Source of the DNA: Oscillibacter sp.
GTDB lineage: Bacteria; Bacillota; Clostridia; Oscillospirales; Oscillospiraceae
Length of the DNA: 48,257 nt
Assembly (NCBI GenBank): GCA_022791135.1
Contig: JAAVYM010000003.1
Coordinates: forward strand, 1 to 48,257
Reading direction: 5' to 3'
The notes under the pieces were generated by a model, which worked only from the letters and a program-made list of their open reading frames with translations, did no database searches and was not told where the DNA came from. This document shows, piece after piece, positions 29,689 to 46,796 of the stretch. The stretch's first letter is position 1. The number at the start of each line of letters is the position of its first letter. Made by a program: the position numbers and the translations under genes.

Positions 29689-29839
29689 GCGGCGTTTTCA
29701 AGACCCGTTCAGGGGTCCGTGTTCCGGGCCGCAAAAAAAGAATTCCAGATAAAACCAGGATGGCCGGTTTTGGTACTTAATATTATAGAAGGACAACATT
29801 CCCTTTTTGGGAAGCTGCCCAAAAAAGAAGGAGGATTTT

Positions 29840-32800
29840 ATGAAAAGCAGACAATGGAAACGCGTGACAGCCCTATTCTGCGCCTTTGCGCTGATACTGT
29901 CGCTGTCACCTGCCATCTCGGCAGCCGGGACCCCGGCGAGTTCCCGGAACATCAACCGGCAAGACTATACCACCTACGGCAATACCGTGACTTCTTATCT
30001 TTATGAGAACGACCAGGGCGGCGTCACCCGGGTGGAATATACAGGCGGGGACCTCATTGTCGAGGATTACGACCGCGCCTATGAGCTGGCGGACAGCCGG
30101 ACGGTCTCGGTGGGCCTCCCGATTTGGGGCGGCTTCTTCGCCGGAGAGGACGCGAATTTCGTGATCTCCGGCCAGACCAACCAGAGCGAGAACGACAGTG
30201 CAGAGGTCATCCGCGTGGAGAAGTACTCCAAGGACTGGCAGTACGAGGGGGAGGCCAGCCTCCGGGGAGCCAACACCACGGTCCCCTTTGACGCGGGTTC
30301 CCTCCGCTGCGCGGAGTACGGCGGATACCTCTACATCCGCACCTGCCACGAGATGTATGAGTCCGACGACGGCCGGAACCATCAGTCAAACCTCATGATC
30401 CAGGTGGACGAGGACAGCATGGACGTCGTGGACGCCTATTACGACATTTACTGCGTGGACTACGGCTACATCAGCCACTCTTTCAACCAGTTCATCCTGA
30501 TTGACGGCGACCGCAACATCATCGGCCTGGACCACGGTGACGCAGACAGCCTGAGCATGGGACCCAACTGGCAGCCCATCGACGTGAACACCCGGGGCGC
30601 GACGCTGGTGAAGTACACCGCCCGGAAGGCCGGGGAGAGCGGCTTCACCGCCAACGCCCAGAAGTTCTGCGACTACAGCATCGTGGAGAACTTCGCCGGG
30701 CGCAGCGGCGACAACACCACTGGCGCTTCCATCGGCGGCCTGGCGGAGACCTCCGGGGGCTACGTCTCCGTGTTCAACTACGACGGCGTAGGCGGGCGGA
30801 GCAACCCCCGGGACGTCTACCTGGGCTACACTAGCAAAAGTGGCCTGTCCAGCACGGCCCGAGTGATTTCGGACTCCTCCGGGACCACCACCCCCGTCCT
30901 GGCCCCCACGGGCCTGAGCGGCGGCTATGTGATGTGGAACGGCAAGAGCGGCTCCACGCCGGACGACACGCTCTATTACACCTCCTACTCCGACGGCGGG
31001 CAGGTGGGTCCGGTTGAGACGGGCACGGCTTCTTTGTCGGACTGCCAGCCCATCTATCACGACGGCATGGCGGTGTGGTACGTGACAGACGGCTCCGAGC
31101 CGGTCTTTTACGGCCTGGACGAAAGCGGCGTCACGGTGCTGAACAATGGCTCCGAGGGTCCAGACGAGCCGGATAACCCGGATGAACCCGGCCAGCCGGA
31201 TGAACCCGGCCAGCCGGATGAACCCGGCCAGCCGGATGAACCCGGCCAGCCGGATGAACCCGGCCAGCCGGATGAACCCGGCCAGCCGGATGAACCCGGC
31301 CAGCCGGATGAACCCAGCCAGCCGGATGAACCCGGCCAGCCGGATGAGCCGGACCAGCCGGATGAGCCGGACCAGCCCACCCCGCCCGCCGGGGACCTGA
31401 CGGTAGAGCAGTGCGCCCTGGCGCAGCCCACCTTCTCCCACAGCAAAGCGGTGCTGAAAAACGGCGACCTGTACAGCTGGGGTACTGCAAGCCGCAATCT
31501 TGGCGTCGGCGATAAGACCAACGCCAGCGGCGGACTCTATCAGTCCGTGCCCATGAAGCTGGACAGCGGCTACATCTCCGTGGGAACCGAGTATTGGGGC
31601 ATCAAGTCCGACAACAGCCTCTGGACCTGGTGGGATATCGTGCCCAATGGGTTTGAGGAGGTCACGAATCCCCCGGTGAAAAAGGCGGACAACGTGGCCT
31701 TCGCGGTCCGCGGGTATACCATCGATATGTCCAGCGGCGGCATGATTCTCCGTTCTGACGGTTCTCTTTACACGTGGGGGAGCAACTGGTTCCCGGGCGT
31801 TGACGCCCGCAATTTCAGTGCGGCCGAGGCGGTCAAATGCATGGACGGCGTGAAGCAGATTTCTTCCATAGAGACGATGAATGACTTCTGCTTCCTGAAA
31901 AAGGACGGCACCCTGTGGGGTATTGAAATGAAGCAGGGCGAGCGCTTCCTGGTCAAGACGATGGACAACGTCGCGGCGTTTGAGATGCATTACGGCGCCT
32001 TTTACGCCATCAAGACGGACGGAAGCCTCTACAAGTGGACCGGGTCGACCGCCAAGGTTCCCAGCGCGGCGGAAGTCACCAAGGTGATGGACGGCGTGGT
32101 CGACGTGACCTGCTTCCGGGGAAACTGCTATTTCCTGACCTCCGGCGGGACGCTGTATAAAACCAAATCCGCCCCGGACGCGGAGATTGTCAAGGTGATG
32201 GATGGCGTTGTGGCCATTGAGGACAACTGCGCGCTGAAGGCGGACGGGTCCCTCTGGACGACATGGGACCCCGCGACGGATAACGTCACCGAAAACACCT
32301 TCCGCAAGCTTCTGGGCAACGTGCTCCTCCCCGGCGAGAGCATCCAGACAAGCAAGCCCAGCCGCCCCAGCAGTAGCAGCAGCTCCAGTTCCGGAACAAC
32401 GGGCACTGTTATGACGAATAACGGCGGCGGCGCCGGCGCCCGTCCCGGCACGGCCACAAAGCCCAATCCGCCCGCTGGGGAAACCAAGCCCACCCAGCCC
32501 GCGAACCCCTTTACGGACATTTCCGAGGGCGCGTACTATTATGACGCGGTGCTCTGGGCGCTGGAGAACGGCATCACCACCGGCGTCACGGAGACGGAGT
32601 TCCGTCCCAGCGCGACCTGCACCCGGGGTCAGGTGGTGACCTTCCTGTGGCGGGCCAAGGGCAGCCCGGAGCCGAAGACGCAGACGAATCCCTTCACAGA
32701 CGTCTCGCCCTCCAGCCCGTTCTACAAGGCCATCCTCTGGGCCTATGAGAACAACATCACTGCCGGGCAGACCGCCGGTACCTTTAACCCCGGCGGAAAC

Positions 32801-33028
32801 TGTACCAGCGGCCATGTGGTGACTTTCCTGTGGCGGGCCAACGGCAAGCCTTCGGCCTCCGGGAGCAGCACCCTGGCTGCCGCCAACCCCGGCAAATATT
32901 ATACGGATGCCATTGCCTGGGCGGACGCCGCCGGACTTCTCTCCGGCATGGGCGGGGACTTTGTCCCCGGCAGCAGCTCTCCCAGAGCGGACATCGTGAC
33001 GTACCTCTATCGCGATATGGAAAAATAA
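29840..33028 (+). CDS. Secreted SLH-domain surface protein with DEPGQP and RCC1-like repeats
   Basis: This 1,062-residue protein has a signal peptide (MKSRQWKRVTALF... cleaved near AISAAG, residue 30) and an N-terminal beta-rich, propeller-like region to about residue 440. Twelve DEPxQP-type units (442-513) form a proline-rich stalk. RCC1-like repeats follow, seen as LYSWGTA, LYTWGSN, LYKWTGS and KTDGSL (about 520-830). A serine-rich linker leads to three SLH domains (about 888-1062: PFTDISEGAYYYDAVLWALENG, PFTDVSPSSPFYKAILWAYENN, KYYTDAIAWADAAG). SLH domains bind pyruvylated cell-wall polymer, so it sits on the cell surface. ATG 29840 follows AAGGAGG. TATTAT at 29781-29786 may be its -10 box, without a clear -35. 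Confidence 0.85.
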   Translation: MKSRQWKRVTALFCAFALILSLSPAISAAGTPASSRNINRQDYTTYGNTVTSYLYENDQGGVTRVEYTGGDLIVEDYDRAYELADSRTVSVGLPIWGGFFAGEDANFVISGQTNQSENDSAEVIRVEKYSKDWQYEGEASLRGANTTVPFDAGSLRCAEYGGYLYIRTCHEMYESDDGRNHQSNLMIQVDEDSMDVVDAYYDIYCVDYGYISHSFNQFILIDGDRNIIGLDHGDADSLSMGPNWQPIDVNTRGATLVKYTARKAGESGFTANAQKFCDYSIVENFAGRSGDNTTGASIGGLAETSGGYVSVFNYDGVGGRSNPRDVYLGYTSKSGLSSTARVISDSSGTTTPVLAPTGLSGGYVMWNGKSGSTPDDTLYYTSYSDGGQVGPVETGTASLSDCQPIYHDGMAVWYVTDGSEPVFYGLDESGVTVLNNGSEGPDEPDNPDEPGQPDEPGQPDEPGQPDEPGQPDEPGQPDEPGQPDEPGQPDEPSQPDEPGQPDEPDQPDEPDQPTPPAGDLTVEQCALAQPTFSHSKAVLKNGDLYSWGTASRNLGVGDKTNASGGLYQSVPMKLDSGYISVGTEYWGIKSDNSLWTWWDIVPNGFEEVTNPPVKKADNVAFAVRGYTIDMSSGGMILRSDGSLYTWGSNWFPGVDARNFSAAEAVKCMDGVKQISSIETMNDFCFLKKDGTLWGIEMKQGERFLVKTMDNVAAFEMHYGAFYAIKTDGSLYKWTGSTAKVPSAAEVTKVMDGVVDVTCFRGNCYFLTSGGTLYKTKSAPDAEIVKVMDGVVAIEDNCALKADGSLWTTWDPATDNVTENTFRKLLGNVLLPGESIQTSKPSRPSSSSSSSSGTTGTVMTNNGGGAGARPGTATKPNPPAGETKPTQPANPFTDISEGAYYYDAVLWALENGITTGVTETEFRPSATCTRGQVVTFLWRAKGSPEPKTQTNPFTDVSPSSPFYKAILWAYENNITAGQTAGTFNPGGNCTSGHVVTFLWRANGKPSASGSSTLAAANPGKYYTDAIAWADAAGLLSGMGGDFVPGSSSPRADIVTYLYRDMEK
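31163..31378 (+). repeat. 18-bp coding tandem repeat, 12 units (DEPGQP)
   Basis: Twelve 18-bp units encode DEPDNP, seven DEPGQP, DEPSQP, DEPGQP and two DEPDQP. The middle units are nearly identical at DNA level, so unit number is likely to vary by slippage. There are no spacers, so it is not a CRISPR array. Confidence 0.9.
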
Positions 33029-33051
33029 GGCGTTCGCCTCTCTACAAAGTA

Positions 33052-33080
33052 TTGCGGCCTCTGTCGGATTGTGCTATGAT
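33052..33080 (+). promoter_or_regulatory. Promoter upstream of the sigma-ectodomain gene
   Basis: TTGCGG (33052-33057), 17-bp spacer, TATGAT (33075-33080) with TGC before the -10 box. Predicted start is about 33087, 168 nt before the ATG. Confidence 0.65.
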
Positions 33081-33118
33081 AACAGCAGGCCGCGGCCCGC
33101 TGGCGAAATGCGAACAAG

Positions 33119-33158
33119 ACCGGCCTCTCCTGCGCTGCGCAGGGGAGGCCGGTTTCTT
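33119..33158 (+). terminator. Terminator-like hairpin in the leader of the sigma-ectodomain gene
   Basis: The arms 33119-33135 and 33137-33153 (ACCGGCCTC... with ...GAGGCCGGT) pair over about 15 bp with one wobble, then TTTCTT. It lies between the promoter above and the gene. It may end transcription of the SLH gene, attenuate the sigma gene, or both. Confidence 0.6.
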
Positions 33159-33254
33159 CACCGGGGCGGCCGAAGTTCTTTAAATGGCGGCGGAGCACAC
33201 GCCTTGGGAGGGCGGCAGTTCCGCCAGCGCCATCGCAGAGGGGGGGAGGCTTTT

Positions 33255-36200
33255 ATGGATCGGGAGCTGATCGAAAAGAGCCGGGCAGGGGACCGGGAAG
33301 CTCAGGAAGAGCTGATAAAAAAGGTACAAGACCAGGTACATTACCACTGCCGGAAGATGTTGAATCACGAAGAGGACGCCCTGGATGCCACCCAGGACGT
33401 CCTAATTGCCATGTTGAAGGGGCTGGAAACCCTTCGGGAGCCGTCGGCTTTTTGGAGCTGGCTGAACCGGATGACCACCAATATTTGCTGCAAAAAGCTG
33501 CGGGATTGCCGGGAGATCCCCCTTCCGCCGGGCGCACCCGTACAGGACGCCTATGGAAATTTTGACGACCAGACCATCCCGGAGAAGGTCTTGGACAACG
33601 AGGAGAACCGCCGGCTCATTGTAGAGCTGGTGGAGGCTCTGCCGGAGGCCCAGCGCCTGTGCGTGCTGTGCTATTACTACGATGAGATGAGCATCCGGGA
33701 CATCGCAGAGGCGATGGAGACCTCGGAGAACACGGTGAAAAGCCGCCTCTATTACGCCCGGAAGGCCATCAAGGAGGGCGTAGACCGCTATACGGCCGAG
33801 GGCATCAAGCTCTATGCCTTCTTTCCGCTGCCGTTCCTGCGCTATTTCCTTCAGAAGGAGGCGGCAGAGAGTCTGCTGACCCCCATAGCGGCGGAGGCCC
33901 TGCGCCAGGCGGTGCTGGCGGGCGTGGCTGGAGCCGCCGGGGCTGCTGCGCAGGGCGGGGCCGCCGTTCTTGCCGGCGCCGCGGCCAAAACGCTTGGCGG
34001 CGCGGCGGTGCGCAAAGGGCTGCTGGCCCTGGCGGGGCTGGTCGCGGCCGGAAGCGTGGGCGGCGCGCTGCTGAGCGCCCGCCGGACTCTGCCGGAATCC
34101 TCACAAGAACTCTTGCCTGCGCCTCCGGCGGTGGTAATAACCGCGCCCCATCCCGCACCGAAGGATATTCCGCCGCCGCATGCGGGCGAAGCCGAAGAGA
34201 TCCAGATTCTGCCGCCGCCCGTGGAGGAGACGCCGCGCTTCCAGCCGGCGGAGGAGGGAGTCCCTCAGCCGTTGGCGGAGTTTTCCGGCCCGCAGATGGT
34301 GGTGGTGGATCTGGAGCCGTATGTCCCGCCCCAGGAGGGCGGGGAGGAACCGGTCCAGCCGCCGTCCTCGCAGCCAGGGAAGGGGACAAACCGTGTTCCC
34401 ACACGCAATCCCCAGGCCAGCAGGGACGAGGATAGGGATTCCGACGGCGATGACAGCAGCTCCGGTCCGCCTCCGGTGGACCCGGTAGTCCCGCCTTCGG
34501 TGGACTCAAATCTGAAAAACCCGGTAGACCCTCCGCCGGTGGACCCGCCTCCGGTGGACCCGCCTCCGGTGGACCCGCCTCCGGTGGACCCTCCGCCGGT
34601 GGATCCGGTGGGTCCGCCTCTGATAGATCCTTCGCCGGTGAATCCGGTAGACCCGCCCCCGGTGGATCCGGTAGACCCTCCGGTAGTCATTCCGCCGGTG
34701 ACGGGCATAGTCTACCGGCCAAATCCAGACTTTGGAGCCTATCTGGGGCAGAATGCGGAGGGCGTCTATGAGTTTGATGTCGAACTTCTCGCAAATTGGG
34801 AGAACCATCCCTACCCCTTCCTGAACGGCCATTATTACTGCAAGGAGGAGCTGTCCGACGGCGATCGCCTTGGCTGCCGGGCCGGGTATATTTACGGAAA
34901 GGTTCCCGGATCCTGCGAGGTGCGCTATTATGTCAGCAAGGATCCCAATGGCCCCTATGAGCTGAAGGGCATTGCCCATGTAAAGGTGCTTCCGGAGGTT
35001 CCCCTTGCGCCGGATTACGATTGGGGCGGCTATCAGAAGACCGGCACGGACGGCGTCTATCGCTTTCGCCGGACTCTCACGCCTGGGACCATCGTCTATC
35101 GCGAACCCTATTCCGGCAGCCAGCTGATCAGCAAGGTGGAGAGCAGCAATTCCGGCGTGATTAAGGCCATGTCCACAAACCAGCTTTGGGCTGTGGAACC
35201 CGGCTCTGCCGAGGTGCTGTACTACACCCGTTATTTGGAGGCAGACCCCTGGAAGCTGACGGCCGCCGTCCAAATAACGGTTCCCAGTCCCTCGACTCCG
35301 CCTGCGCCTCCGAAAGAGGTCTTCCAGCAGGAGCTTACCGTTGGCTACGGCTATGCATCCAATTTCCACGACGTGTGGAAGGGTGAGCTGCCGGACGGGC
35401 TGTCCTTTGTCTCTTCCAAGCCCTCGGTGGCCTACATAACTGGCAGCGGAGGAGGTTTCTGCACCCTGATTCCGGGCGTCACGGTCCTGAGTGCCGAATC
35501 CCCGGACTGCCGCTATGAGCTGACGGTGAATGTCGAGGATGCCCTGGCCTGGAAGTACACGCTGGAGGATAAGACTCTCCCGGCCGGGACCTCTGTGGAG
35601 CAGGAGCTGGTCTATGAGCGCCTTCCCTATATGGAGATGAACGGCCTCTATTGGGAGAGCGAAGACCCCCGGATAGCCCATATAAAAGCTTTGGAGGGCG
35701 AGAAGTGCCTGATTTCCGGCATCGGCCCCGGCACGGTCACGATCAAGGCCCACGCGTCGTTTTGGGTTCTGACGCCGGACGGAGAGAAGGCCATGAAAGA
35801 GACCGTCTCCTTCCAGGTCCATGTGGAAGAACCGGTGCTGCCGCCGGAGGAGGAAATGGTGGTCCACCGGAAGGAGCTGGAAAAATTCGGATACTGTTCC
35901 GGTTACGGCGGCAGCTTTGTCTTTGCCAATAAATGGGGAGATGAGTTGCCGGAGAATTTGGTCTATACCTCCTCAGACAGCGCCGTGGCGGTTGTGGATT
36001 CCAACGGACATTGCGACGCCCTCTCCGCCGGAAGCGTAGAGCTGATGGCCTTCGACCCGGATGAGCCGAAGGTCCAGTATGTCCTGGCTCTGGAGGTTCA
36101 GGACCGGTTTGACTGGTCCTACCGCTTTGAAGACGGCGAGGTCGATTTGACTAATTACTCGGATCGCCACGGGATTGATAGCATGGCCATAAGCGGCGCG

Positions 36201-37319
36201 GTCATTCGGTCGGTGAAGTTTACCAGCAGCGACCCGGATACGCTGGAGGTGCTCTTCACCGCGCTGAATACCCGCAGCTGCTCTCTGAAAGGTCTCCGGC
36301 GGGGCAGCGTGGAGCTTTTCTGCACGCTCACCTTCGAGGTGGACACTTGTGTGGGCATGCGGATGATGGAGGATACCATCTCCTGCCAGATAACGGTGGA
36401 TTATCTGAGCTTTCAGGGGGAGACCGAGGAAGTAGTTCTGACGGACTTCGGCTATTGCTCCGGCTATGGCTACAAGGATACGTTCCGCCGGGCCTTTGAG
36501 TCGGCGGGGAAGACCATGCCGGAGGAGGATCTGTACTTCAGATCTTCCGACAGCTCGGTGGCCGACTTTGAAAAAGACCGGAATTTTATAACCAAGAAGG
36601 AAGGAATTTTCCTCACGAAGAAAGCGGGCCGGGCGATTTTGCTGGCTCAGCCTGTGTCCGGCGATTCCGGCGTGCAGTATGCCATCATCATCGAAGTGCA
36701 AAACCGATTTGACTGGCGCTATACGCTGGATAATCTGACACTGGAGGCGGGCAGCTCCGCAGAGCATGGCGTTTCGGCCTATGAGGTGGGCAGCGATGTT
36801 ACGGTAGGCTTTGCAAGCTGGACATCCCGCAACGCGATCGTGCTCTCCGCAGAGCGGAAACCGGGCGACTATTTGACCTGCGTCATCAATGCTTCCCAGC
36901 GCGGCGTAACGGAGGTCAGCGGGTTTATCAGCTTCAACGTAAAAAACTGGGGGACGTATTATGAGAATGTTTCCTTCCAGGTTACGGTTGTAGAACCCGC
37001 TCCCGAGCCACCCCCGGAGACGCCGGACCCACCCGGCGAGCCAGACCCCCCGGAGACGCCGGACCCGCCCGGCGAGCCAGCCCCCCCGGAGACGCCGGAC
37101 CCGCCCGGCGAGCCAACCCCTCCGGAGACGCCGGACCCACCCGGCGAGCCGAACCCTCCGGAGACGCCGGACCCGCCCGGCGAGCCAGCCCCCCCGGAGA
37201 CGCCGGACCCGCCCGGCGAGCCAACCCCTCCGGAGACGCCGGACCCGCCCGGCGAGCCAACCCCTCCGGAGACGCCGGACCCGCCCGGCGAGCCGAACCC
37301 TCCGGAGACCTCGGAATGA
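33255..37319 (+). CDS. ECF-type sigma factor fused through a membrane helix to a large Ig-like ectodomain
   Basis: This 1,354-residue protein opens as a complete sigma-70-family factor. Region 2 (about residues 10-80) includes EDALDATQDVLIAMLKGLE and FWSWLNRMTTNICCKKLR. Region 4 (about 118-178) has LPEAQRLCVLCYYYDEMSIRDIAEAM and TSENTVKSRLYYARKAI, the DNA-binding helices. An Ala/Gly-rich stretch with one likely membrane helix (about 250-275) follows. Outside lie a proline-rich stalk with PVDPP units, at least three diverged beta-sandwich modules, and a C-terminal stalk of eight 12-residue PPETPDPPGEPx units. Repeats are seen in GYGYASNF, FGYCSGYGG and FGYCSGYGY, each later closed by WKYTLED, WSYRFED or WRYTLDN. 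There is no wall-anchor motif. GGGGGGAGG precedes ATG 33255. No separate anti-sigma gene is seen; the ectodomain probably supplies sensing. Confidence 0.85.
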   Translation: MDRELIEKSRAGDREAQEELIKKVQDQVHYHCRKMLNHEEDALDATQDVLIAMLKGLETLREPSAFWSWLNRMTTNICCKKLRDCREIPLPPGAPVQDAYGNFDDQTIPEKVLDNEENRRLIVELVEALPEAQRLCVLCYYYDEMSIRDIAEAMETSENTVKSRLYYARKAIKEGVDRYTAEGIKLYAFFPLPFLRYFLQKEAAESLLTPIAAEALRQAVLAGVAGAAGAAAQGGAAVLAGAAAKTLGGAAVRKGLLALAGLVAAGSVGGALLSARRTLPESSQELLPAPPAVVITAPHPAPKDIPPPHAGEAEEIQILPPPVEETPRFQPAEEGVPQPLAEFSGPQMVVVDLEPYVPPQEGGEEPVQPPSSQPGKGTNRVPTRNPQASRDEDRDSDGDDSSSGPPPVDPVVPPSVDSNLKNPVDPPPVDPPPVDPPPVDPPPVDPPPVDPVGPPLIDPSPVNPVDPPPVDPVDPPVVIPPVTGIVYRPNPDFGAYLGQNAEGVYEFDVELLANWENHPYPFLNGHYYCKEELSDGDRLGCRAGYIYGKVPGSCEVRYYVSKDPNGPYELKGIAHVKVLPEVPLAPDYDWGGYQKTGTDGVYRFRRTLTPGTIVYREPYSGSQLISKVESSNSGVIKAMSTNQLWAVEPGSAEVLYYTRYLEADPWKLTAAVQITVPSPSTPPAPPKEVFQQELTVGYGYASNFHDVWKGELPDGLSFVSSKPSVAYITGSGGGFCTLIPGVTVLSAESPDCRYELTVNVEDALAWKYTLEDKTLPAGTSVEQELVYERLPYMEMNGLYWESEDPRIAHIKALEGEKCLISGIGPGTVTIKAHASFWVLTPDGEKAMKETVSFQVHVEEPVLPPEEEMVVHRKELEKFGYCSGYGGSFVFANKWGDELPENLVYTSSDSAVAVVDSNGHCDALSAGSVELMAFDPDEPKVQYVLALEVQDRFDWSYRFEDGEVDLTNYSDRHGIDSMAISGAVIRSVKFTSSDPDTLEVLFTALNTRSCSLKGLRRGSVELFCTLTFEVDTCVGMRMMEDTISCQITVDYLSFQGETEEVVLTDFGYCSGYGYKDTFRRAFESAGKTMPEEDLYFRSSDSSVADFEKDRNFITKKEGIFLTKKAGRAILLAQPVSGDSGVQYAIIIEVQNRFDWRYTLDNLTLEAGSSAEHGVSAYEVGSDVTVGFASWTSRNAIVLSAERKPGDYLTCVINASQRGVTEVSGFISFNVKNWGTYYENVSFQVTVVEPAPEPPPETPDPPGEPDPPETPDPPGEPAPPETPDPPGEPTPPETPDPPGEPNPPETPDPPGEPAPPETPDPPGEPTPPETPDPPGEPTPPETPDPPGEPNPPETSE
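34521..34690 (+). repeat. 15-bp coding repeat (PVDPP) in the ectodomain stalk
   Basis: Five near-identical PVDPP units at 34521-34595 are followed by degenerate copies (PVDPV, LIDPS, PVNPV, PVDPV) to about 34690. It encodes a stiff proline-rich spacer just outside the membrane. Confidence 0.8.
37011..37298 (+). repeat. 36-bp coding tandem repeat, 8 units (PPETPDPPGEPx)
   Basis: Eight 36-bp units encode PPETPDPPGEP followed by D, A, T, N, A, T, T, N, then a partial PPETSE and the stop. The DNA units are nearly identical, which makes recombinational length change likely. Confidence 0.9.
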
Positions 37320-38265: not shown

Positions 38266-38565
38266 CACCGGGGGTGAAGGAGTCCGTCCCGGCTGGAAAT
38301 TATGAAAAAAATTTTCCCAGGATAAAACAAAAATGCCATAGGCGGTACTTATCGTTCGGAAAGAAGCTGTGCCAATCGCCCGGTGCGCACCCCGGCGGAA
38401 GAAATTCTTCCCCCAGGATTGTCCGATTTCCTTGCCGGGCAAAGATGTTCCCACAAACCGGCGCACAGCGGCCATTGGTGCAGTTTCTTGCATGATGAGC
38501 CTGTGATGAGCGCTTCAGCTAGGGGCGGAAGCGCCATGCGGAGTCCCGGATTACGGCCACATGAA
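38266..38565. other. Non-coding stretch before the fragment cluster
   Basis: I see no gene, promoter pair or strong hairpin here. A reading frame from 38383 is open across its second half and runs into the FecR fragment, but the residues before about 38590 have no recognisable pattern. The lost 5' end of the FecR gene probably lay here. Confidence 0.5.
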
Positions 38566-39219
38566 ACGCGGTCCCCGTGCGCAAGACTGTCCGCTGCCCC
38601 GGCGGCGGAGAGCGCCGCCATGATCTGCCTGAGCAAGACCGAGGGAACCGCAGGAGTTGGCAAGAGCAGCGGCAAGAGCTTGACCCGGCTGCCGAACATG
38701 CACCTTTACAGTGGCTATTACGCCGTCACGGAGGAGAAGAGCTATGCCTGGATGAACCTGGACGACACGAAGACCATCAAGGAAGATGCGTCCAGCGAGA
38801 TAGAGGTCCGCAAGGACGGAAAAAAGCTGGAGGTGAACCTCAGCTCCGGCAATCCCGCTGTGCGAGGAAATGGAGGGAGAGACTGGCCTGAGATTCTCAA
38901 GGATCTGGCAAAAGCGGAAGGCGAGGACCCCAGCGGAAAGACCCCCGACGGAAAAACCGCCACGCCCCAGGCCATCAAAGAGGCCCGGCGGCGGCAGGAC
39001 GGGGAGGAAATGAAGCAGGAGCAGGAGCTGGATGCGGCCCGAAAGCAGCAGAGCGGGCAGCCCCACATCGTTTCCCAGGAAAAGGCATTTCCGAAGCTGG
39101 TAGCGCCTACCCAGGGCTGGAACCCGGCCATTGACGGCGGCAGCACCAGCAGCGGCGGCAGTTCATCGTCCTTAAGTACGAAGCCCAGGACCATGAAGCT
39201 GAAGGACACAGAGGTCTAG
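38566..39219 (+). pseudogene. FecR-domain protein, decayed
   Basis: The reading frame holds a clear FecR-type core: AAPAAESAAM, a degraded LSKTEGTAGV, then LPNMHLYSGYYAVTEEKSYAWMNLDDTK and DASSEIEVRKDGKKLEVNLSSGN. FecR-domain proteins of this kind in Clostridia are usually secreted or lipid-anchored. Here the signal peptide is gone. The core is cut after LSSGN, where a LFFNV-like strand and GIRGTxG-like motif would be expected. The rest is an Ala/Lys/Gln-rich tail ending at an amber codon (39217-39219). The same frame continues beyond that codon into the next fragment. No good ribosome site exists at any start. Confidence 0.65.
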
Positions 39220-39792
39220 GCGCTTCTGGAGGGGCGGGGTTCGCTCACCGTGCAGCCCAACACGGAATCTGCGGATACCCTGCGGAATAGCGGCACAGTG
39301 TCCGTCACCAGCGGCGACACGTTGCGGCTGCGGAGGGATCTGGCCAGCTCGGGCACGCTGACGGTCTCCGCCACCGGCCGGATTCTGGTGGATGGCGTGT
39401 TCACGCGGACCGCCGCAGCAGCCCTGACGGCCGGCGCGGATATAAAGGCGAAATCCTTTGCACCCGTTGTAGCGCATGGCAGCTGGGCGGCATCTGAGGA
39501 GCCGGATGCCACGGGCTATTACACCTTGATTCCCACAGAGGCCCCGCCGCCCCAAAGGACTTACACCGTCACCTTCCATGCGAATCAAGGCGTGTTTGCA
39601 GACGGCTCGGAGACAAAAGCGGTCCAGACGAATACGGACACCCGCGTGACGCTTCCGGAGGAACCCACCCGCGGGACGTCCTATGAGTTCCTGGGCTGGT
39701 TCGACGCGTCGGAAGGCAGAAATCAGGTTCTTCCCACAGACAGCCTGCCCAATGCGGACCAGACCTTCTACGCGCAATTGCCAGCAGCTTGA
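39220..39792 (+). pseudogene. Surface-repeat protein fragment (List_Bact-type repeat)
   Basis: Directly after the amber codon and in the same frame, this fragment has a repetitive beta-rich part (SGTVSVTSGDTLRL, SSGTLTVSATGRI). A Listeria/Bacteroides-type repeat follows: YTVTFHANQGVFADGSETK with the typical ending YEFLGWFDASEG and NADQTFYAQ. It has no signal peptide and no ribosome site, and it ends where the leucine-rich fragment begins in another frame. It is most simply the middle of a large adhesin-like gene that has been deleted on both sides. Confidence 0.6.
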
Positions 39793-40087: not shown

Positions 40088-40689
40088 GAGGCGGCCTTGG
40101 CGGCCTCGGGGCTGCTGATGGTGCTGGCGGCCTCGGGTCTGCTGGACAAGGCGGACTGGAGCGTTTCGGACGCATGGTATCAAAGCCGGAGCACGCCGGA
40201 AGAAGACGTGGTCTTAGTGGGCATTGACGAGCGGACAATCCAGGAGATTGGCCCCTATCAGCGTGGGGGCGGGACGTCATTGCCATGGCCGTCGAGGCCA
40301 TGAACTACATTCACTCGGCCCTGGAGAAGCGGCGGGTCACCGCGACCTTTAAGCGTTACGTAGCCCCGGAGATTGTCAACGAGATTCTCAAAGAGGGTTC
40401 TGACGCCTTGGAGCTTGGCGGGAAGCTGACGAACATCGCGGTGCTGTTTGTGGATGTCCGGGGCTTCACAACCATGTCCGAGCGCCTTCAGCCGAAGCAG
40501 GTGGCGGAGATTCTGAACCGGTATCTGACCCTGATTGTGGACTGCATCCTGCGAAACGGCGGCGCGCAGCCGCCCCTTTCCCGTCCCTTCCTGAACGGAT
40601 CGGTTTCTCTTCCGGCTGTGACCTCCGTCCCGATTGGAGTCTCCCGCCTTTTGCAAAACAGCCGGAGCCTCATCCGGCAGCGCGCCTGA
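40088..40689 (+). pseudogene. CHASE2-adenylate/guanylate cyclase, decayed
   Basis: The first part (to about 40263) reads as a membrane helix and the start of a CHASE2 sensor: ASGLLDKADWSVSDAWYQSR, VVLVGIDERTIQEIGPYQR. A one-base loss near 40262 shifts the frame to WGRDVIAMAVEAMNYIHSALEKR, joining the beginning of CHASE2 almost directly to the linker after its last helix. Most of the sensor is therefore deleted. The class III cyclase domain follows (YVAPEIV, IAVLFVDVRGFTTMSERL with the first metal aspartate) but stops after DCILRNGG. The rest of the catalytic core is replaced by unrelated residues before the stop at 40689. It cannot be an active cyclase. Confidence 0.75.
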
Positions 40690-45308: not shown

Positions 45309-46796
45309 TCAGGGCATAGCCTCCAGCACCTCCGGGAGGGTGTGGTTCAGGTCGGAAAGGCAGAGGTGCCCGCCGCCGAAGAGGCGGGCCAGCTGAATCC
45401 GCTCCGCGATGGACTGCCCGTTGAGATACCAGATGACGGAGGTTCCCCGGCTCAGGTAGGCGCAGGCATAGCGGCTGGAGTAGTGGCTTGCGGCCCCCTG
45501 CTCGGCCAGGTACTCGGTCAAATCCTCTCCGCTGACAGGGGTGGAGGTTTCCCCGTCCCAGTCCGAGCCGGTGGAGGTGAGGAACAGGGTCAGCTTGTTG
45601 GCGTCCACCACGCCGCGGAGGCGGCTCAGGCCGTAGTAAATGCGCTCCAGCGGTTCCAGCGGGGCGGCGAAACGTTCCCCGGCGCGGTCCGCCCGCTGGG
45701 TGACCCGGAGGACCAGGCGGTCGGCAAGTCCGCCCAGGGCGGCGTAATCGTAGCCGGAGATGACGCCCTTCCAGGAGGAGGCCTCCGCCGCGATGAAGAG
45801 TAGCCGCTCCCCCAGCCCCTCCCGCAGCAGGCGGGCGGCGCCGGTCAGGGTTTTGCTCTGCGTGTTGTTGGTCAGTCCGGAGATGTCCAGGAACAACCCC
45901 TCATAGCCCCCGTCCTTCACCGCCTGGAGCAGCACCGCCGCCAGCTTTTCCTCGTCGTTTTCCCGGAGGTGGTAATCGGTTCCGGAGACGTAGAGCAGCG
46001 GCTTGGCCCCGGCGGAGGAGACGGCGGAGCAGATGGCCTTCACCTCGTCCGCCCCCAGCAGGGAGGTCAGCTGAGGCGCTCCGTTATAAGCCAGCTTGGC
46101 GGCGGCGACGCCCACGGCCTCATAGCCCTTCAGCCCCGGCAGGCCCTCCGCCGAGGTAGCCACGCCGATACGGCTGACGGTGCCGCTGCGCAGCTTGTCG
46201 TGCAGGCGCATGAGGATGACGGCGGCCTGTTCCCGGGTGACATGGCCCTCGGGGGAGAAGGCGGTGACGGAAGTGCCGTCCATCAGCCCCAGGCCGTAGG
46301 CCATGATGATATAGCCATTGTTGGACCGGATGTCCTGGAAGGGGAGGGGCATATCCTGGATCAGTCCGGCAATGCTGCCATAGCCCAGGGCGCGGACCAG
46401 CATGGCGGCGGCTTCGCTGCGGGTGATGAGGCTGTCGGGGCGGAAGCTGCCGTCCTGGCTGGTAATTGCCCCCTGGTGGTAGGCGGTCTCCACCACGCCG
46501 GCATACCATGCCTTTTCCGGGACATCCTCGTAGATAGACCGGGCGGGAGCTGCGGGTTTCCAGCCGAAGAGGCGGCTGAGCACGACCAAAAACTCCGCAC
46601 GGGACATCTCCTTGCCCACGCCGAAGCTGCCGTCCGATTCTGCGTAGAAATATTTCAGGGCGATGCAGCGGTCAATGTCCTCCTTTGCCCAGAAGTCCTC
46701 CGGCACGTCGGAGAGGGCGGCGGCGGGGGCGGACAGCCCGCACGCCAGCAGGGCGCACAGCATAAGGCAGGATAGGACCTTTTGCAGACGTTTCAT
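45309..46796 (-). CDS. SLH-domain surface protein with degenerate GH18-like domain
   Basis: This 495-residue protein has a signal peptide (about residues 1-27) and three SLH domains: LSDVPEDFWAKEDIDRCIAL, IYEDVPEKAWYAGVVETAYH and FQDIRSNNGYIIMAYGLGL, spanning about 28-205. The rest reads as a TIM barrel similar to the GH18-like hydrolases of spore and cell-wall proteins. Its catalytic strand is GYEGLFLDISGL, where active GH18 enzymes have DGxxxDxE; the proton-donor glutamate is a serine here. It is therefore likely a surface-bound glycan-binding protein rather than a hydrolase. AAGGAG precedes ATG 46796 and a near-consensus promoter lies upstream. The gene stands alone on its strand. Confidence 0.8.
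   Translation of the reverse strand: MKRLQKVLSCLMLCALLACGLSAPAAALSDVPEDFWAKEDIDRCIALKYFYAESDGSFGVGKEMSRAEFLVVLSRLFGWKPAAPARSIYEDVPEKAWYAGVVETAYHQGAITSQDGSFRPDSLITRSEAAAMLVRALGYGSIAGLIQDMPLPFQDIRSNNGYIIMAYGLGLMDGTSVTAFSPEGHVTREQAAVILMRLHDKLRSGTVSRIGVATSAEGLPGLKGYEAVGVAAAKLAYNGAPQLTSLLGADEVKAICSAVSSAGAKPLLYVSGTDYHLRENDEEKLAAVLLQAVKDGGYEGLFLDISGLTNNTQSKTLTGAARLLREGLGERLLFIAAEASSWKGVISGYDYAALGGLADRLVLRVTQRADRAGERFAAPLEPLERIYYGLSRLRGVVDANKLTLFLTSTGSDWDGETSTPVSGEDLTEYLAEQGAASHYSSRYACAYLSRGTSVIWYLNGQSIAERIQLARLFGGGHLCLSDLNHTLPEVLEAMP

Follow-up and report, generated by a model that had tools for sequence, protein, structure and literature searches.

The gene at 33255..37319 (forward strand) in the Oscillibacter sp. 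DNA analysed here (contig JAAVYM010000003.1, 48,257 nucleotides; hereafter the window) encodes a membrane-spanning sigma factor of the extracytoplasmic function (ECF) type, and it raises the question of how a protein that carries promoter-recognition regions, a membrane anchor and a large outer domain in one chain could act on promoters. The gene runs from an ATG at 33255 to a stop at 37319 and encodes 1354 amino acids. The architecture of this chain, its conservation among relatives, a promoter code that co-varies with the sigma part, and the likely targets of that promoter are supported by the data. The explanation that we consider probable is that the protein is a single-chain receptor-type ECF sigma factor released by intramembrane proteolysis, for which we infer the release, the topology and the signal.

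A preliminary description of this DNA had placed ECF regions 2 and 4, a membrane helix and a large ectodomain in one chain, and both Pfam and hydropathy bear this out. Sigma-70 region 2 (amino acids 20-84; 33312..33506, this and the following features of the chain being on the forward strand) matches PF04542 Sigma70_r2 at 5.9e-12 and region 4 (amino acids 120-172; 33612..33770) matches PF08281 Sigma70_r4_2 at 5.9e-14; region 3 is not among the Pfam and NCBIfam domain matches, and the whole chain matches NCBIfam sigma70-ECF at 4.7e-26. The modelled sigma part has SigW as its best match in PDB, and a profile built from 72 family members (71 complete chains from the best 80 relatives, plus the window) matches SigW, RpoE and AlgU-type chains there. 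A degraded sigma part was therefore rejected. Behind region 4, the 72-member alignment shows a conserved juxtamembrane stretch (amino acids 183-222; 33801..33920; consensus G-x-KLY-S-x-x-P-x-PFL-x-x-x-L-R), for which the predicted structure has two additional helices, 191-205 and 210-225. It is followed by a linker of low model confidence (amino acids 223-253; 33921..34013) that is Ala/Gly-rich across the family, and then by Lys254 and a single hydrophobic helix (amino acids 255-273; 34014..34073), also modelled with low confidence. The 19-residue hydropathy mean of this helix is 1.97, the best windows starting before residue 170 or after residue 285 reaching 1.29; the Lys254 position is K in 69 of the 72 members, and a Gly within the helix is conserved in 63. 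From hydropathy, we infer that the sigma part lies in the cytoplasm and the ectodomain outside.

The absence of a nearby anti-sigma gene, also claimed in the preliminary description, holds for both neighbours of the sigma gene, which encode an SLH/RCC1 protein (upstream) and an amidohydrolase (downstream). Within the window chain itself, Pfam gave no match up to E 1 to an anti-sigma domain, whether FecR (the type carried by IutY of Pseudomonas putida) or any other, nor to a zinc finger between the sigma part and the helix. The family as a whole likewise shows no sign of an anti-sigma zinc finger, with at least two Cys behind region 4 in just 4/72 members. On these Pfam scans and Cys counts, the idea that the linker contains an anti-sigma domain of the zinc-finger or FecR type was rejected.

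The chain after the helix comprises 1,079 amino acids (counted from residue 276). Composition and repeat analysis define a proline-rich stalk with tandem repeats (34086..34694), with a proline content of 31% in residues 278-480, near the membrane, and a C-terminal proline-rich repeat tail (37004..37309; a 36-nt unit repeated 8.6 times). The ectodomain proper (amino acids 481-1265; 34695..37049) is assigned by Pfam, structure model and fold comparison to immunoglobulin-like (Ig-like) beta-sandwiches. The model predicts beta domains throughout these ~785 residues (mean pLDDT 84, pTM 0.48), and the nearest PDB folds are mostly Ig-type and cadherin-type, with the S-layer proteins SbsB, SbsC, Sap and EA1 also among the matches, all TM-scores being low. 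The Ig-like repeats of the preliminary description are upheld in part: the ectodomain contains the modelled beta domains and three mutually similar stretches of ~170 residues each (25-36% identity), but Pfam calls a single Ig domain, Big_2 at 902-940 (3.6e-7). This was the only Pfam domain found in the ectodomain, and thus no carbohydrate-binding domain was recognised there by Pfam.

To place this chain among its relatives, 228 confirmed members from named genomes of Oscillospiraceae and Lachnospiraceae were collected and the best 80 (loci L061-L140) were analysed. In 74 of these 80, a hydropathy rule places a single hydrophobic helix behind the sigma part, in the same sigma-helix-ectodomain layout; five of the remaining six are interrupted by a contig end or N gap, and L133 stops early. 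The architecture that the preliminary description called striking is hence real, but it is not singular. Record titles of the relatives include Oscillibacter, Flavonifractor, Intestinimonas, Pseudoflavonifractor, Blautia and Lachnospiraceae, and the named hosts of the best 80 are Clostridia, with cultured strains such as Oscillibacter valericigenes An411 among them. When residues 1-277 were searched in 60 genomes, strong matches (E 9e-36 or better) were found in 9 of 37 same-genus genomes, its own included, and the next best match across all 60 genomes was 1.1e-21. At E 1e-35, the profile matched in 17 of 86 genus genomes, hereafter the carriers. An order-wide profile scan of 295 genomes, with at most 8 candidates scored per genome so that the genome count is a lower bound, gave at least 26 matches in at least 19 genomes at 168 bits or more, the next scores being 135 and below. 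Spread on plasmids was rejected, as no match at E 1e-20 was found among 72,556 plasmid records.

The two halves of the chain differ sharply in conservation. Across members, the sigma and juxtamembrane part shows 28-69% identity to the window, and the ectodomains have a mean column identity of 9%. At a Pfam E of 0.01, Big_2 is found in 17/72 ectodomains, RCC1 in 4/72 and LRR_5 in 3/72, most others being unnamed by Pfam. Judging by these alignments, the sigma part is conserved while the ectodomain is swapped (Ig-like, RCC1, LRR and others). Some variation is also seen on the sigma side. In one genome (G018; L045 1251-1871), a short sigma paralogue without the helix directly precedes a full RCC1-type receptor sigma. 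At L106 (3812-5512) and L111 (5908-7593), the sigma open reading frame (ORF) has, by eye, a zinc-ribbon-like CxxC...CxxC stretch at its beginning, ahead of region 2, which could be an additional cytoplasmic sensor.

Directly upstream of the sigma gene lies a likely target and partner (29840..33028, forward strand), which encodes a secreted-type protein of 1062 amino acids with a signal-peptide-like N-terminus, a ~430-residue N-domain, proline-rich repeats, and RCC1-like and SLH domains. The putative ECF-type promoter ATAAAACC-N15-GGTACT (29749..29777, forward strand) is found 91 nt upstream of this gene. Its general pattern, a ATAAAACC -35, an N15 spacer and a -10 hexamer ending in CT, was first noticed in front of the partner genes. 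The window and the 80 loci together contain 90 distinct ATAAAACC sites, of which 55 have CT at spacer 15, whereas none of the other spacers from 10 to 23 exceeds 8 sites; 60 permuted 8-mers used as a control gave a mean of 25 sites and a mean of 1.3 (maximum 6) with CT at spacer 15. The commonest -10 hexamers are GGCACT and its variants, with GTTTCT, GTGTCT, TCGTCT and ACGTCT elsewhere, and those of the window clade are GGTACT, CGTACT or GTTACT. Sites of these classes are present at 36 of the 81 loci (the window and the 80).

On a quick sigma tree, the -10 class changes 4 times (the minimum being 3), compared with a mean of 15.5 after shuffling and none of 200 shuffles as low; GTTTCT and GTGTCT loci fall into two sub-clades of the tree. 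Nine sigma columns separate GCACT from GTKTCT loci, and five of them (70-73 and 81) are inside region 2, the part of a sigma factor that reads the -10. As far as these comparisons reach, the -10 hexamer follows the sigma tree on a constant -35. This co-variation supports the view that the sigma part is active.

The predicted targets are often surface proteins. The sigma gene itself follows eight of the 55 sites, at a distance of 172-410 nt; among the remaining 47, 33 precede an ORF with a ribosome site and a hydrophobic N-terminus, a combination found behind 2/33 other ATAAAACC sites and 133/2000 random positions. With 15 distal carrier sites added, the resulting 70 sites yield 69 downstream proteins (one duplicate omitted), which include 23 with SLH domains, 8 that are the sigma itself, 6 transglutaminase-like, 4 AlgX-like (ALGX), 4 LRR_5 and 1 MBOAT. 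The four AlgX-like SGNH proteins and the MBOAT protein are behind the promoter in five carriers (L147, L153, L155, L157 and L156), which suggests regulated O-acylation of a surface polymer. According to one review, the set of SLH proteins retained by Bacillus anthracis changes when its secondary wall polymer is no longer O-acetylated, and direct binding studies covered by the same review found little effect of O-acetylation (PMC7759979). Taken as predictions, these promoter data support a functional sigma factor and a regulon at the cell surface.

The same pattern is enriched in carriers. In the 86 genus genomes, ATAAAACC-N15-VKBWCT has 37 sites in the 17 carriers versus 30 in the 69 non-carriers (Mann-Whitney p 2e-7), and three or more sites occur in 7/17 carriers versus 0/69 non-carriers; the reversed control pattern has 14 versus 34 (p 0.12). 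Like sites often recur within a carrier, for example GGTACT four times in G002 and in G015, GTTACT three times in G020, and GGCACT four times in G018. In G365, which has four sigma matches, GGCACT occurs three times and GTGTCT once. The window genome has six N15-CT sites, of which that at 29749 is the sole one with GGTACT; another, C88:19708 (GGAACT), is perhaps also a true site and precedes a protein with an N-terminus that resembles, by eye, the N-domain of the partner.

How might such a protein be switched on? In the proteolytic release scenario, a single membrane helix would connect the cytoplasmic sigma part to the proline-rich stalk and Ig-like ectodomain outside, and this tether, perhaps together with the juxtamembrane helices, would keep the sigma part inactive. 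The ectodomain would sense a cell-surface change, site-1 cleavage would occur in the stalk, and subsequent site-2 (RseP-like) cleavage in the Ala/Gly-rich helix would free the sigma part. In the window clade the freed sigma would recognise ATAAAACC-N15-GGTACT (or CGTACT/GTTACT) and drive genes for S-layer-associated (SLH) surface proteins; in relatives the targets would extend to O-acyltransferases of the AlgX and MBOAT types, and some of these sigma factors would also drive their own gene. The window genome encodes a site-2 protease homologue (G000:C91, E 2.9e-58). The one-component membrane-to-promoter switch of the preliminary description remains the best reading, with cleavage as the putative means of release, and the promoter co-variation supports its active sigma.

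The main rival to release is that the sigma works while still tethered, a long, flexible Ala/Gly linker allowing polymerase and promoter to be bound at the membrane and the ectodomain altering accessibility without proteolysis. Such a linker, of low model confidence, does lie between the juxtamembrane helices and the membrane helix, no anti-sigma domain was detected whose removal would be needed, and membrane-bound one-component regulators act at the membrane likewise. However, sigma factors normally depart together with polymerase and are recycled from it, which weighs against tethered action. Moreover, for the membrane-fused sigma factors covered in one review, proteolytic release is shown (IutY) or expected (ECF48/52/53) (PMC8999054), and proteolysis is described even for ToxR and TcpP, two activators that are membrane-bound (PMC7593790). 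We regard tethered action as unlikely, though clearly ahead of the other rivals. It is improbable that a different ECF sigma of the same genomes recognises the promoter, with the membrane chain serving as a decoy or anti-sigma-like sponge. Other readers do exist, given 33 region-4 matches in the genome (31 above the family cut-off), and 45 of the 81 loci lack a classed site, but the -10 class tracks the tree of the membrane sigma, sites are enriched in carriers and, in 8 cases, precede this sigma's own gene, and both DNA-binding regions of the membrane sigma match their families well. The joining of separate sigma and adhesin genes by assembly error or by frameshift (the latter a caveat raised in the preliminary description) has next to nothing in its favour: the window does come from a draft assembly of 119 contigs, but the frame is open throughout 33255-37319, and recurrence of the fused chain in the 74 relatives, from different assemblies including that of cultured O. 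valericigenes An411, refutes it.

It should be noted that several observations weigh against the receptor-sigma explanation and its promoter code. Neither a cleavage site nor a site-1 protease or a signal was identified, the membrane topology is a prediction from hydropathy, and the window genome is just 84.5% complete. The 45 loci without a classed site include most Lachnospiraceae loci and the close relative L064, and among L101-L140 a classed ATAAAACC-N15 site is found at L106, L111, L117, L121 and L129 only; promoters of the remaining loci in this range may use another -35. Four of the six N15-CT sites in the window genome look like chance, the reversed control pattern giving seven there. 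In the genus comparison, this control pattern is also somewhat commoner in carriers, and the non-carrier matches are about as many as their control-pattern matches. Two of the 17 carriers (G022 and G352) have no site; G000, G354 and G023 each have a site of no known class, which in G023 is its sole site; and G034 and G373 mix GGCACT with CGCACT or AGCACT, which are GCACT-class variants. Downstream ORFs and signal peptides were chosen by simple rules (length, ribosome site, hydropathy), a few sites are probably chance, and in three non-carrier regions (L162-L164, of 18 distal regions) no gene for a hydrophobic N-terminus follows the site. Finally, the carriers are related, and genomes and loci are thus not fully independent.

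The region upstream of the window sigma gene bears on when the receptor is made. An own ECF promoter directly upstream was considered and dropped, as the gap has a housekeeping-type promoter instead (33052..33080, forward strand; TTGCGG-N17-TATGAT with TG before the -10), although a stricter sigma-70 consensus scan flagged no promoter at 32950-33300. Similar TG-N-TATAAT boxes occur in the close relatives L061, L064 and L096, and 17/81 members (the window and these three included) have a TG-N-TANRAT box within 300 nt upstream, compared with 4.6% of random windows. On this basis, receptor synthesis in the window clade probably takes place in advance and under a housekeeping-type promoter, and there could also be read-through from the promoter at 29749. 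Between this promoter and the sigma start codon there is a hairpin at 33117-33155 that has a T-rich 3' end and a stem of 18 pairs, including two G-U pairs; it may be either a terminator of the SLH gene or a sigma attenuator. In many relatives, a small ORF overlaps the start of the sigma gene from upstream and encodes a peptide like MRYITFFQFLRRCLLxDAExH or MTFFQWVRxxLLSDA (L062 5880, L063 5886, L065 5865, L073 5686, L079 5868, L081 5877, L082 5895, L086 2004, L088 5868, L091 5868, L094 5865 and others). Its relative frame is constant in 18 loci despite differing spacer lengths; two further regular-expression matches (L078 and L114) are in a different frame and look like chance, and none was seen before the window sigma gene. 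This small ORF may reflect a leader peptide, translational coupling or a frameshift.

Genes for SLH proteins are also found next to the sigma genes of relatives. Partner homologues (37-53% identity) are the next large same-strand gene upstream in L062, L063, L065, L068, L071 and L076, that is, in 6 of 40 loci (L061-L100), other loci having the N-domain or SLH domains nearby. In a hand-picked set of neighbouring ORFs, SLH domains were found in 14/33 upstream (26 of 41 nearest, plus 7 second-nearest where the nearest was short) and 6/30 downstream (26 of 36 nearest, plus 4 second-nearest). The window genome has 65 SLH matches, in ~32 places by reading of the list, and a second gene for an SLH-domain protein is found in the window at 45309-46796 (reverse strand). 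At 38383-39792, a surface-type gene is apparently split over several frames; it resembles, by eye, the FecR/List_Bact_rpt protein behind the promoter site in G002 (L149). A short ORF at 40285-40689 has a motif that we take to be that of a class III nucleotide cyclase, of which it would be a piece.

The preliminary description rightly stated that sigma factors with extra C-terminal domains are known, since membrane-tethered ECF52 and ECF243 with C-terminal sensor extensions have already been described. ECF52 (SCO4117 of Streptomyces coelicolor) is reported to combine, like the window chain, an ECF sigma, a transmembrane region, a proline-rich extension and an extracellular sensor-like domain, with proposed proteolytic release (PMC5826349, PMC8999054). 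The transmembrane region followed by a proline-rich extension is present in the window chain. In contrast, the zinc-finger and carbohydrate-binding domains described for ECF52 were not detected in it, and ECF52 is reported as exclusive to Actinobacteria (PMC5826349), whereas the named hosts of the present family are Clostridia. The recognised ectodomain types of this family, unlike those of ECF52, include Ig, RCC1 and LRR. IutY (ECF243, Pseudomonas putida) is likewise described as an ECF sigma fused to a membrane part, but the part added to the sigma is an anti-sigma factor that belongs to cell-surface signalling for iron (PMC8999054), and no anti-sigma factor was detected in the window chain; activation of IutY is reported to proceed through proteolysis by Prc and RseP (PMC8999054, PMC7593790). 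In the SigI/RsgI systems of cellulolytic clostridia, a membrane helix is described as connecting substrate sensing with control of the sigma, and RseP as cleaving within this helix (PMC12203970). There, the sensor is a separate anti-sigma protein, whereas in the window chain the sigma itself bears the outer part. Single-chain membrane sigma factors are thus already known, and the window family shares their layout without a detected anti-sigma part and with other sensor domains and another phylum. Among the records listed by literature searches on extended or membrane-anchored sigma factors and on such proteins in Clostridia, no description of this family was found; the 2021 ECF classification may list the group. 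Beyond the preliminary description, the present analysis adds ectodomains that are swapped among relatives, an SLH gene as likely partner, and a promoter that differs from clade to clade.

More tentatively, and at a little short of an even chance in our judgment, these proteins may form a Clostridia-wide family of receptor sigma factors that needs no anti-sigma domain, in which the state of the S-layer is sensed by outer domains that can be swapped. Because each clade's sigma would have a private -10 code on a shared -35, several receptors could then share a cell without cross-talk, a situation for which G365, with its four sigma matches and sites of two -10 classes, may be an example. To our knowledge, surface regulation in gut Clostridia has been little studied. 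If the receptor reading is correct, this would be among the shortest routes from the outer surface to a promoter, with sensor, anchor and promoter-recognition subunit in one chain, and a surface receptor may in this way be connected with S-layer (SLH) proteins and with acylation of the AlgX/MBOAT type. The clade-specific -10 hexamers make the regulon directly testable and, together with the constant -35, provide a natural set of possibly orthogonal sigma-promoter pairs.

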